From positions 1 through 22,855 of IMG/VR virus record IMGVR_UViG_3300010354_014810: 22,855 bases of DNA; one strand, 5' to 3'. The first letter of the stretch is position 1, and each line of letters opens with the position of its first letter. A model generated the notes under the pieces. That model ran no database searches, had not been told where the DNA came from, and was given only the letters and a program-made list of their open reading frames with translations. Made by a program: the position numbers and the translations under genes. This document shows, one piece after another, positions 4,406 through 9,629 of the stretch. The stretch is from a virus.

Positions 4406-5155
4406 TTACTCTCCTTTTCTTTTTTGATTGACCCAAAATTCTTTCCAAGTTGGATCTAATTTATCATAAATGTCATCGCGCTTTAAAGATTCTGGCCCAA
4501 AAAATCTACCTTCAAATAAGGCAGCGTCATCATAAAGGGCAATGTGATCTGCAAATATACCACATAAATCAGAATAACTAGGTCTTTGCCAAGCAAGATG
4601 TGGGCGAATTATGTAGCAGTTAATGTCTTTTTGGATTTCAGCAAAAAGAACATCATTTGTTTTATTCATTTTTGATAATGTATTTATTGCAAGATCATAA
4701 ACCGTGTTCTTAACAGCATAACAATGTAGTGCCAAAGAATAAGAAACTTTAAAGACATTATCTGCCATAAAAGTAAGCTCCCCTTTTGACCAGGGGTTAT
4801 TACCAGCATGATTACCACCAAAAAGAATAACATCCCAATCGTCTGGAATTCTAGAAAAAATTTCAGAAAACTTAGAATTTAAATTTTCATCAAATTGAAC
4901 ATCATCCTCAAGGATTAAAATGTTATCTAAGTTTTTTTCTTTTGCTTTTTGGATTATTCCTCTATGAGAATAAATTGCCCCGACTTGTCCTGGATTTAAG
5001 TTGGGAAGTGAATCTAAATTATTACCATCAAATGCAGAAAATCTTTCTGCAATAAGATTATGTTTTTTAAATTCTTCTTGACATTCTTGCCACCTATCAG
5101 TTCTTCTATCAAGATTAATACAATGAATTTCTTGAAAGTAATCGGTTAAAGTCAT
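4406..5155 (-). CDS. GT25-family glycosyltransferase
   Basis: 249 residues. IHCINLDRRTDRW (10-22) and GQVGAIYSHRGIIQKA (56-71) are clear GT25 landmarks; ILILEDDV (79-86) is the acidic metal site. It is a paralog-level match to the GT25 gene at 865-1653 but the two differ clearly. The start codon shares its A with a TAA (5155-5157) that is in frame with the interrupted FkbM gene upstream, giving a TAATG junction. This shows that the FkbM gene once ended here. Predicted soluble transferase in LPS- or glycan-type modification. Confidence 0.85.
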   Translation of the reverse strand: MTLTDYFQEIHCINLDRRTDRWQECQEEFKKHNLIAERFSAFDGNNLDSLPNLNPGQVGAIYSHRGIIQKAKEKNLDNILILEDDVQFDENLNSKFSEIFSRIPDDWDVILFGGNHAGNNPWSKGELTFMADNVFKVSYSLALHCYAVKNTVYDLAINTLSKMNKTNDVLFAEIQKDINCYIIRPHLAWQRPSYSDLCGIFADHIALYDDAALFEGRFFGPESLKRDDIYDKLDPTWKEFWVNQKRKGE

Positions 5156-5204
5156 TATTTTTTAATAAAAATAGTATTAATTTCATCAGAATAAATTTCT
5201 ACAT

Positions 5205-5301
5205 AACCATTATTGTTAATATTAATTTCTTAAAATTTTGAAATTAATATTAACCATTATTGTTAATATTAATTTCTTAAAATTTTGAAATTAATATTAA
5301 C
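5205..5301. repeat. Two tandem 47-bp copies of an AT-rich palindromic element
   Basis: Exact period of 47 bases: copy 1 at 5205-5251 and copy 2 at 5252-5298. The array contains two perfect 15-bp inverted repeats, GTTAATATTAATTTC / GAAATTAATATTAAC (5215-5229 with 5240-5254, and 5262-5276 with 5287-5301), each with a 10-nt self-complementary loop TTAAAATTTT. The array sits inside the 3' end of an FkbM gene and introduces in-frame stops. Removing 75 bp restores a continuous frame. Confidence 0.9.
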
Positions 5302-7760: not shown

Positions 7761-7789
7761 AGTCTAGCACGTTTATGGGTGGTTGTCAA
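7761..7789 (-). promoter_or_regulatory. sigma70-like promoter upstream of 7490-7702
   Basis: TTGACA (7784-7789), a 17-nt spacer, and TAGACT (7761-7766, 4/6). It overlaps the 3' end of the 7786-7980 gene. It could drive the small genes and, by read-through, the whole glycan cluster. Confidence 0.7.
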
Positions 7790-7980: not shown

Positions 7981-8086
7981 ATTTAGATTCGTATATGCTT
8001 GATGAGATCAGTAGGGATAGTTTGGTTATTATGATTATTATGGCTAGTGGGAGGAAGCAGAGGGTTATTATGAATGGGTAGTTCAT
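7886..8086 (-). CDS. Putative small membrane protein, overlapping frame
   Basis: 66 residues: an N-terminal hydrophobic segment (about 4-28, isoleucine-rich) followed by a charged tail ending in EEEADRDF. It overlaps the 7786-7980 gene by 95 bases in another frame. No good ribosome binding site is visible. The clear membrane segment argues for a real gene, the overlap against. Confidence 0.45.
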   Translation of the reverse strand: MNYPFIITLCFLPLAIIIIITKLSLLISSSIYESKYAEQESRKPHGPFVASAYEDIDREEEADRDF

Positions 8087-8118
8087 GGTTGGGTTTGGGT
8101 TTTATTCTTTATGCTCCT

Positions 8119-8201
8119 TTAATTGACTGGAATTATTATTTATAAAAGAAAAGACCTCAAGAAGAGGTCTAATCTTTACCTTAAAGAGGCCAGTCAATTA
8201 A
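8119..8201. repeat. 12-bp inverted repeat enclosing a terminator hairpin
   Basis: TTAATTGACTGG (8119-8130) and CCAGTCAATTAA (8190-8201) are perfectly complementary and enclose 59 bases holding the 8152-8170 hairpin. RNA from either strand could form a two-level stem. On the minus strand it would be the 3' end of the transcript that carries the tRNA-like element. Confidence 0.75.
8152..8170 (-). terminator. Rho-independent terminator of the non-coding region
   Basis: AGACCTC/GAGGTCT 7-bp stem with a 5-nt loop. On the minus strand it is followed by TTTTCTTTT, fitting an intrinsic terminator for transcripts coming from 8250-8720. Confidence 0.75.
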
Positions 8202-8234
8202 GGTAGAAGTATTTATTACCTAAAATTTATTAAG

Positions 8235-8242
8235 TATTTATA
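8235..8242 (-). promoter_or_regulatory. TATAAATA late-promoter-like octamer
   Basis: Exact TATAAATA on the minus strand, identical to the T4 late -10 box; a second ATAAATA lies at 8210-8216. They could serve the small genes at 7786-8086, but the terminator at 8152-8170 intervenes, so function is doubtful. Confidence 0.35.
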
Positions 8243-8248
8243 CTTAAC

Positions 8249-8335
8249 AGGTCCTAGTCGGATCGAACGACAAACGCTTCCATCCCCATATTTATAAAGC
8301 GATTGGTTTAGAAGACCAACTGGGGTGTAGGACCC
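8249..8335 (-). tRNA. tRNA-like element, possibly degenerate tRNA-Arg(UCU) without a D-arm
   Basis: Minus-strand reading: acceptor halves GGTCCTA (8334-8328) and TAGGACC (8256-8250) pair over 7 bp. A T-arm GTCG-TTCGATC-CGAC lies directly next to the 3' acceptor half, with a canonical T-loop. A 5-bp anticodon-like stem TTGGT/ACCAA holds the 7-nt loop CTTCTAA, giving UCU (Arg). But only 8 bases separate the acceptor from this stem, too few for a D-arm. About 30 bases sit between anticodon and T-arms. They include CGCTT/AAGCG, and TGGGG that could pair with upstream CCCCA to form a pseudoknot. It may be a decayed tRNA, an unusual tRNA, or a tRNA mimic. No CCA is encoded. Confidence 0.4.
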
Positions 8336-8339
8336 ATAA

Positions 8340-8715
8340 AACCCCAATGTTTGAGCATAAAAACCAATAAAAACCAGTACTTTCTAGAATTTTCCTAATT
8401 TTTACTTAAAGGAATCCAGAGGCTTAAGGGGTTATTTTTGATGGACCTGCCGTGATCGTGCTTCATAAGAACACGCCAGAGGACTGACCTCTATCGTTTT
8501 TTATTTAGGAGGGGTATCCCACACGAAGTCACTTATGGATTACGCTTCGTAGCCTTAAGAATCCTGCCATCATCTGATGGTGACTAGAAATCCCTGCCCA
8601 ATTCCAGTTTATCACTAAATCCTCCATCACAAAACCGGTAAAAACTATGTGAAGGATTTAGTTGCTGCCCCATCTAAAATGGCGTCTTTTTGGGCTATGT
8701 GCCTAACGACTTCCA
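8340..8715 (-). ncRNA. Candidate structured non-coding RNA region
   Basis: No convincing protein gene is seen here, although a sigma70-like promoter at 8723-8751 points into it. Several stems can be drawn: CTAAATCCT/AGGATTTAG (8615-8623, 8653-8661) extended by TCACA/TGTGA; CCATCA/TGATGG (8567-8580); ACGAAG/CTTCGT (8523-8550); AGAGG/CCTCT (8478-8492). Transcription would run on through the tRNA-like element to the terminator at 8152. Short minus frames exist, such as a 32-codon one starting with MEDLVINWNWAG, but they lack good ribosome binding sites. No known RNA family is recognised. Confidence 0.35.
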
Positions 8716-8722
8716 CCTTTTA

Positions 8723-8751
8723 AGTATCTCACATGTTCTCTGATTTGTCAA
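8723..8751 (-). promoter_or_regulatory. sigma70-like promoter facing the non-coding region
   Basis: TTGACA (8746-8751), a 17-nt spacer, GATACT (8723-8728, 4/6). The upstream flank CTGTCACATACCCC resembles that of the promoter at 9253-9280 (CTGGCACACCCCC). Confidence 0.7.
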
Positions 8752-8998
8752 GGGGTATGTGACAGTTGATCAAGTGGTCCTCCCCTTTTAAGTAAGTGTA
8801 AGTATACAATTGAGGCCAAGTGTCTCTTATAATCTCTGAGAGTTTATAAGGTGTAGTAGAAGTTATCATAAGTCTTGTGTGATAGACATAATAAAAAGGA
8901 ATACTCCGAAACTTATGAAGAATTCGAGAATGGTGAGCATAAAAAGAGTCTTAGAACTCCCCTATTTATTTTATAGAAGACACCAGAATTTTTCCATA
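8752..8998. other. Intergenic stretch without a convincing gene
   Basis: Contains a hairpin CTTATAA/TTATAAG (8826-8850) with inner CTC/GAG pairing, which has no U-tract on the minus strand. A 24-codon minus frame (8866-8940, MLTILEFFISFGVFLFIMSI...) would encode one membrane helix, but it has no ribosome binding site. The plus-strand frame starting at 8879 runs into the opposite gene and looks like a shadow. Confidence 0.4.
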
Positions 8999-9223
8999 TT
9001 AATTCTCTGGTCCTTTGTTTTCCAGCAGATTAAAACTACTTTTGATCTGCTGGAATCCTATAATAATTTTTTGAATAATATTTACATTATGGGGAATAAT
9101 TTCTTTCACCATAGAAAATGATGAATTATGATTTTCATCAATTTTAAAAATTTGTGGAATTCCATAATAATCAAACTCGGGATGATATAAAATCTGGCTG
9201 TCTTGTTTAATAAGAGTTTTCAT
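8999..9223 (-). CDS. Hypothetical protein
   Basis: 74 residues, no family recognised. Mixed charged/hydrophobic, with FDYYGIPQIFKIDENHNSSF in the first half and an Ile/Asn-rich helix-like second half. It is favoured over the plus-strand frame here because a sigma70-like promoter stands 30-57 bases upstream in the right direction. Its 3' end includes a long inverted repeat (9022-9053). Confidence 0.6.
   Translation of the reverse strand: MKTLIKQDSQILYHPEFDYYGIPQIFKIDENHNSSFSMVKEIIPHNVNIIQKIIIGFQQIKSSFNLLENKGPEN
9022..9053. repeat. Long hairpin within the 3' end of 8999-9223
   Basis: CCAGCAGAT (9022-9030) pairs with ATCTGCTGG (9045-9053). The pairing extends inward through AAAA/TTTT with one T-G wobble, giving about 14 bp and a 4-nt loop. 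It lies inside the coding frame, so it could block ribosomes or nucleases, or attenuate read-through. Confidence 0.7.
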
Positions 9224-9252: not shown

Positions 9253-9280
9253 ATCCTAGCACTTTTTGTAGATTTGTCAA
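9253..9280 (-). promoter_or_regulatory. sigma70-like promoter for 8999-9223
   Basis: CCCCCTTGACA with -35 at 9275-9280, a 16-nt spacer and TAGGAT (9253-9258). Transcription would start about 20-25 bases before ATG 9223. Confidence 0.7.
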
Positions 9281-9293
9281 GGGGGTGTGCCAG

Positions 9294-9629
9294 TTAAAAA
9301 AGTGGATCAGATTCGATTACCAACTTCCAATCTCTTTTATAAGGAGTCGAGGTTGAATACACTCCAGGTTCAAATTGACCAGTTCTTAGAACTATTTCTA
9401 GAGCAGTTTGAGTTTCTTTATGTAACTCATAATATTCATAAGACAAATCATCATCTAATTCGCCATCTGGATATTCACCGGTTAAAATTTCATGAATATC
9501 CCCCTCCACAAAACTATTTCCATAGGGTCTTTTGGGGTCAATCTCTGGAGCACCATACTCACAATGACTCCACCCAACATACATAGATCTAAGTAATTTT
9601 ATGTGAGATTCAGTAAGTGTAAATTTCAT
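9294..9629 (-). CDS. Conserved cyanophage hypothetical protein
   Basis: 111 residues from ATG 9629; the longer frame would need TTG 9638. MKFTLTESHIKLLRSMYVGW, EYGAPEIDPKRPYGN, then GDIHEIL and a C-terminal FEPGVY/DWKLV segment form a pattern I associate with small conserved cyanophage proteins of unknown role. Soluble and acidic. The last of a run of small minus-strand genes extending from 11956; likely early in infection. Confidence 0.8.
   Translation of the reverse strand: MKFTLTESHIKLLRSMYVGWSHCEYGAPEIDPKRPYGNSFVEGDIHEILTGEYPDGELDDDLSYEYYELHKETQTALEIVLRTGQFEPGVYSTSTPYKRDWKLVIESDPLF

Follow-up and report, generated by a model that had tools for sequence, protein, structure and literature searches.

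GOLLD and ROOL are large structured phage RNAs that occur near tRNAs. AbiF, a HEPN RNase belonging to the Abi_2 family, has the abiF RNA as its antitoxin, and the C. difficile abiF RNA (RCd22) neutralises AbiF both in cis and in trans (PMC12373285); AbiFr is a further abiF RNA antitoxin of AbiF/Abi_2 (PMC12737573). An abiF sRNA has already been reported in the cyanophage S-CREM1, with no mechanism proposed in the relevant part of that report (PMC9964418). Phage counter-defence has mostly been studied as proteins, and the one precedent we found for a phage RNA that mimics an RNA antitoxin is the pseudo-ToxI of phage PhiTE (PMC3475682). Here, we describe a viral interval that may be a counter-defence cassette of RNA antitoxins, a reading we hold with slightly less than even confidence.

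The window, that is, the whole stretch of DNA analysed, is a 22.9-kb virus record (22,855 nt), and the locus of interest lies on its minus strand. Gene order around the locus matches that of B23 (Kyanoviridae), with correspondence judged by order and size: both have a tRNA-Pro(TGG), small genes, the interval, two small genes and a glycosyltransferase family 11 gene. Because this order is shared, we take the window to be a cyanomyovirus fragment. About 560 nt lie between a promoter-like site (8751-8723) and a terminator (8170-8152), an interval which the sequence-only reading had proposed as a novel phage ncRNA with several stems, a tRNA-like element and no convincing ORF. From 5' to 3' the features are:

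8723..8751, minus strand: promoter of early, sigma-70-like type (TTGACA-17-GATACT, a TG preceding the -10), with the L099 and L032 copies near-identical
8679..8716, minus strand: motif A, nested stems (GTC/GAC plus a 6-bp hairpin) with an ANAYA loop, at the presumed RNA 5' end
8615..8661, minus strand: long hairpin CTAAATCCTTCACA...TGTGATGGAGGATTTAG, present in the minimum-energy and centroid folds
8508..8609, minus strand: module D, hairpin CCATCAGATGATGG plus an H-type pseudoknot inside an outer stem, structure by inspection
8440..8492, minus strand: module E, pseudoknot with an internal hairpin, from covariation in 25 relatives and comparison of the window and syntenic copies
8340..8433, minus strand: abiF-like hairpin, RF03085 letters matched, 20.6 bits
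8250..8334, minus strand: tRNA-Arg(UCU)-like element with a UCU anticodon arm and long variable region, from sequence and fold
8190..8201, minus strand: left (5') arm of the inverted repeat around the terminator, perfect in the window, L032/L099 and L124
8152..8170, minus strand: intrinsic terminator stem-loop with a T-rich tail, from sequence
8119..8130, minus strand: right (3') arm of the inverted repeat, directly before the AAAGGAG of the next ORF

The earlier description of the sequence holds. Over the promoter and the first ~100 nt, the related contigs L099 and L032 are 96% identical to the window. The 12-bp inverted repeat said to wrap the terminator (TTAATTGACTGG/CCAGTCAATTAA, 8201-8190 / 8130-8119) is perfect, and its arms have changed together in L032/L099 and L124. 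Of 100 dinucleotide shuffles of the 586-nt strand, none folds as well as the strand itself (z = -3.85), and the longest listed ORF within the interval reaches 43 aa from a TTG start, in agreement with the lack of a convincing gene. The presumed RNA start is near 8716, and a non-coding early transcript of ~560-580 nt is predicted, which would be the form that the cyanomyovirus tRNA/RNA-module locus takes in this phage; the prediction is as tentative as the whole explanation to which it belongs.

A 46-aa ORF (8869-8729, minus strand; MITSTTPYKLSEIIRDTWPQLYTY...) runs at its 3' end into the promoter and has relatives in other phages; at the DNA level these include unannotated stretches between psbA and psbD in Syn30 and S-SCSM1. 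A stretch similar to the promoter recurs at 9271-9305, and two further promoter-like sites on the minus strand (7761-7789 and 9253-9280) begin with CTTGACAA as the promoter does, again with a TG ahead of the -10.

The modules run in the order A, long hairpin, D, E, abiF-like hairpin and tRNA-Arg(UCU)-like element, and A, D, E and the abiF-like module recur between tRNA genes of other phages. Searches against Rfam 15 gave neither a match at the gathering score nor a credible weak match for A, D and E in the window, S-SZBM1 and other loci; weak matches under the cut-off at 8000-9000 (Spy490380c, ureB sRNA, U4 and miRNAs) were set aside as chance. A structured, gene-less phage ncRNA, as claimed, is supported, and its novelty has to be narrowed: the interval is no isolated case but a patchwork of modules which relatives hold inside tRNA arrays, one part of it resembles the known abiF RNA and another derives from tRNA-Arg(UCU). 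The sequence-only reading had also proposed covariation across related phages as a check; measured on relatives, covariation is present in motif A and module E.

Motif A (38 nt) is represented by 34 distinct variants, with 95.7% of cells paired and six pairs changed on both sides, a degree of pairing approached by none of 500 shuffles and none of six slid controls. A degenerate pattern for the motif found 94 viral stretches; the few hits without the stem are regarded as chance. Across all loci examined, 81 of 100 pattern hits for motif A directly follow a tRNA, starting 4-6 nt past the predicted tRNA 3' end, behind 12 different anticodons. In the window and its close relatives it stands at the promoter, not behind a tRNA. 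In L032, B23 and L119 it lies ~110-190 nt before a DUF2828 gene, which in L032 (3221-1757, minus strand), L025 (from 1661) and L119 sits between motif A and the remaining RNA locus; the window and L099 have no such gene at that place. A Ro/Y-RNA reading prompted by this neighbour was dropped, the window having no such gene there. An apparent tRNA-like element before motif A in B23 proved, on comparison with L032, to be the promoter region, which contains a hairpin. Other copies of motif A, in L054, L072, L092 and L106, lie away from tRNAs and are followed by a conserved ACAGGACGCAAGTAAGTCGCGGAACGG stretch. Further recurrent inter-tRNA modules occupy spacers after motif A in L030, L031, L040, L108 and L115, some of them tRNA-like without a normal anticodon arm (for example, CCTCTGGTAGTCTATTGGTAAGGACAGGCAGACAATGCACTTGG...CAGAGG).

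Module D (102 nt) is 95% identical to its copy in L061 and 92% identical to those in L068, L085 and L091. Its pseudoknot pairs GGATT/AATCC with ACGAAG/CTTCGT (8564-8523), and its core pattern occurs at 26 loci besides the window, all in tRNA arrays and nearly always between tRNA-Asp and tRNA-Glu; no match was found among sequenced phage isolates. The outer stem is GGGAGGG/CCCTCCC in L061 and GGAAGGG/CCCTTCC in a related element in L066, and is mismatched in the window copy.

Module E is common in many inter-tRNA spacers. Its pseudoknot helix was examined in an alignment of 25 distinct sequences, of which one came from a host-family genome; both sides have changed in all six helix pairs, and every cell of the helix is paired. 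The window copy and three syntenic relatives, whose register is shifted by one base, were excluded from this alignment, and the window has one A-A mismatch in the helix. Sequenced isolates that match the window's module E stretch are S-SZBM1, S-SRM01, S-CREM1, S-RIM8 and S-RIM32.

At the homologous place after module E, two phage sequences carry an abiF RNA (RF03085; S-SZBM1, 55.7 bits; L103, 50.6 bits), with a tRNA-Ala ~5 nt past it in both. The window hairpin reads AACCCC UUA AGC CUCU, a 61-nt insert, then GCU CAAACAUU GGGGUU. The conserved letters AAGCCUCU...GCUCAAA and the 3-bp inner stem are all present and the outer stem AACCCC/GGGGUU can pair, with joining segments of 3 and 8 nt versus 1-2 and 4-7. 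Its 20.6 bits are below the RF03085 gathering score of 37; we make no claim of family membership and call it abiF-like. Common descent of this hairpin with the abiF RNA of S-SZBM1 and L103 is nevertheless very likely, because position, flanks and letters agree. The relatives L099, L032 and L124 have kept module E and lost the abiF letters. The viral contigs examined contain 75 abiF RNAs with a confirmed structure; 37 of them have a tRNA no more than 300 nt away, and in 25 of the 75 a tRNA starts within 30 nt downstream. Solitary abiF-like hairpins are also found in phages away from tRNAs, and these could have another role. The abiF part of the S-SZBM1 query matches ~30 mycobacteriophage records (including Baka, Optimus, Wanda, Thibault and Redno2), often where no feature is annotated.

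The tRNA-like element noticed earlier is real in that it has a 7-bp acceptor stem, a 5-bp anticodon arm with a CUUCUAA loop and a 4-bp T arm with a UUCGAUC loop, the acceptor and anticodon stems being perfect; it has no D arm, and neither ARAGORN nor Rfam calls it a tRNA. A tRNA-Arg(UCU) stands at the equivalent place in L124 and is intron-split in L099/L032. The L099 intron is a group I intron inside the anticodon loop (5051-5248; RF00028, 53.6 bits); that of L032 was placed by sequence identity (about 1050-830, minus strand). In another phage contig, L108, a permuted cyanobacterial-type tmRNA (1945-2196; RF01851, 119.7 bits) lies inside the tRNA array.

Judging from the cyanophage relatives, the host family is likely that of Synechococcus WH 5701. 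PF07751 (Abi_2) genes are present in 13 of 400 genomes of this family, and for 10 of the 13 a structure-based scan (background, 3 matches in 327 kb) placed an abiF hairpin immediately upstream of the gene. The host hairpins have expanded apical loops, most starting with CUCU, like the window, and one (L370) has its outer stem and flanks in common with the S-SZBM1 phage copy. An exact abiF letter pattern had given an apparent absence of the RNA from hosts (1 of 400 host-family genomes; upstream of 0 of 8 Abi_2 genes), which the structure-based scan overturned; host abiF RNAs differ from the exact pattern in the inner stem and apical loop. In L333 and L372 an E-type pseudoknot stands ~100-160 nt upstream of the Abi_2 gene, instead of the abiF hairpin; these two loci are near-identical and thus count as one lineage. 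No counterpart of motif A was found in 370 host-family genomes at the sensitivity used, nor one of module D in 370 such genomes, the latter search having no positive control. Matches of a phage spacer to two cyanobacterial sequences (L376 and L378) were an unlisted tRNA and contained no module. On the viral side, no PF07751 gene was found in 50 records with these or related RNAs, including the complete S-SZBM1 and B23; the named controls gave no match over the cut-off, and the same model gave strong cyanobacterial matches. Nor did Abi_2 match any of the six predicted proteins that flank the interval in the window.

Our best explanation, which falls a little short of an even chance, is that the interval is a phage RNA-antitoxin cassette for counter-defence; transcription, toxin binding and benefit to the phage we infer. 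It would be a stand-alone module locus under its own early promoter, with small structured RNAs strung together up to a tRNA-Arg(UCU)-like end. The abiF-like and E modules would most likely be RNA antitoxins without a toxin, produced early in infection, which bind a host abortive-infection toxin of AbiF type (Abi_2, HEPN RNase) and keep it in check. They would be needed once host transcription stops and the host antitoxin RNA is depleted; in relatives, the co-produced tRNAs could take the place of host tRNAs that these RNases cut. For A and D, any function is likewise inferred. This antitoxin reading is supported by the recurrence of the modules between tRNAs, the covariation in A and E, the abiF RNA at the homologous place, the toxin-less phage records and the matching RNAs beside Abi_2 genes of the host family, together with an abiF RNA that neutralises in trans (PMC12373285) and the pseudo-ToxI precedent (PMC3475682). 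It is weakened by the sub-cut-off score and odd joining segments of the window's abiF-like hairpin, the mismatch in E, the loss of the abiF letters from L099, L032 and L124, and the single lineage of the E-bearing host loci. For A and D, two of the four modules, searches of the sensitivity used gave no host counterpart, and the solitary phage hairpins away from tRNAs could act otherwise.

Some of these weaknesses can also be read as decay. The window copy may be partly decayed, because its abiF score is below the cut-off and E has a mismatch, and with the tRNA lacking a D arm there is a real chance that it is a relic. The corresponding alternative, which we consider somewhat improbable, is that the ancestor was a working tRNA array with modules and the window is its functionless remnant, perhaps still transcribed; the missing D arm of tRNA-Arg, the abiF score of 20.6 versus 37 and the mismatches in the E pseudoknot and D outer stem all fit. 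Against this, good preservation is seen in the promoter, motif A, the terminator repeat and module D (95% identical to L061), and the acceptor and anticodon stems of the tRNA-like element are perfect.

A processing role would also suit the fixed place of motif A (4-6 nt past tRNA 3' ends, and this behind 12 anticodons), and the nearly constant position of D between tRNA-Asp and tRNA-Glu points the same way. The modules would then be structured spacers that guide maturation or stability of the polycistronic tRNA transcript and inhibit no toxin. We regard this as unlikely, given that motif A stands at the promoter in the window and its close relatives and that E-type and abiF RNAs beside bacterial Abi_2 genes are left unexplained. 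Least probable, and in our view very unlikely, is a leader RNA controlling a downstream gene: motif A does precede DUF2828 in L032, B23 and L119, but in the window and L099 no gene intervenes between motif A and the terminator, and the motif mostly follows tRNAs.

A broader form of the antitoxin reading, which as a whole we think rather doubtful, is that cyanomyovirus tRNA arrays double as RNA counter-defence islands. In these, E and abiF would neutralise two kinds of host Abi_2 toxin, A and D would be two undescribed classes of RNA inhibitor against other host systems, and the window would be a four-RNA stand-alone cassette with its own early promoter. If the antitoxin reading is true, mimics of RNA antitoxins are a common feature of phage tRNA arrays, the occurrence of abiF RNAs with no toxin gene is explained, and the upkeep of tRNA clusters by phages becomes testable as toxin inhibitors and replacement tRNAs made in one transcript. 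Also described here are three recurrent RNA modules absent from Rfam and a second, pseudoknot-type RNA beside Abi_2 genes.

Compared with GOLLD and ROOL, for which the window gave no Rfam match, the interval is a chain of small separable modules, and that reading was rejected. With phage tRNA arrays it shares the locus, the neighbours and a tRNA-derived 3' element, although only one degenerate tRNA-like element is kept. Like the abiF RNA (RF03085), the window hairpin has the AAGCCUCU and GCUCAAA letters, an NGC/GCN inner stem and C-rich/G-rich stretches that could form an outer stem. Unlike that RNA, it has a 61-nt insert in the apical loop, a weak outer stem and a sub-cut-off score, and it lies without an adjacent toxin gene within a longer RNA that ends tRNA-like. 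S-CREM1 likewise represents an abiF RNA in a cyanomyovirus; beyond what the relevant part of that report describes (PMC9964418), the abiF-like hairpin of the window shares its locus with E, D, A and a tRNA-like element, and abiF is tied to host-family Abi_2 loci. Pseudo-ToxI consists of tandem repeats and concerns another toxin family and other RNA folds, whereas the window holds a chain of different modules. As with pseudo-ToxI, a similar RNA lies beside a toxin gene in possible hosts and, if our reading is right, the window would encode another phage RNA that imitates an RNA antitoxin.
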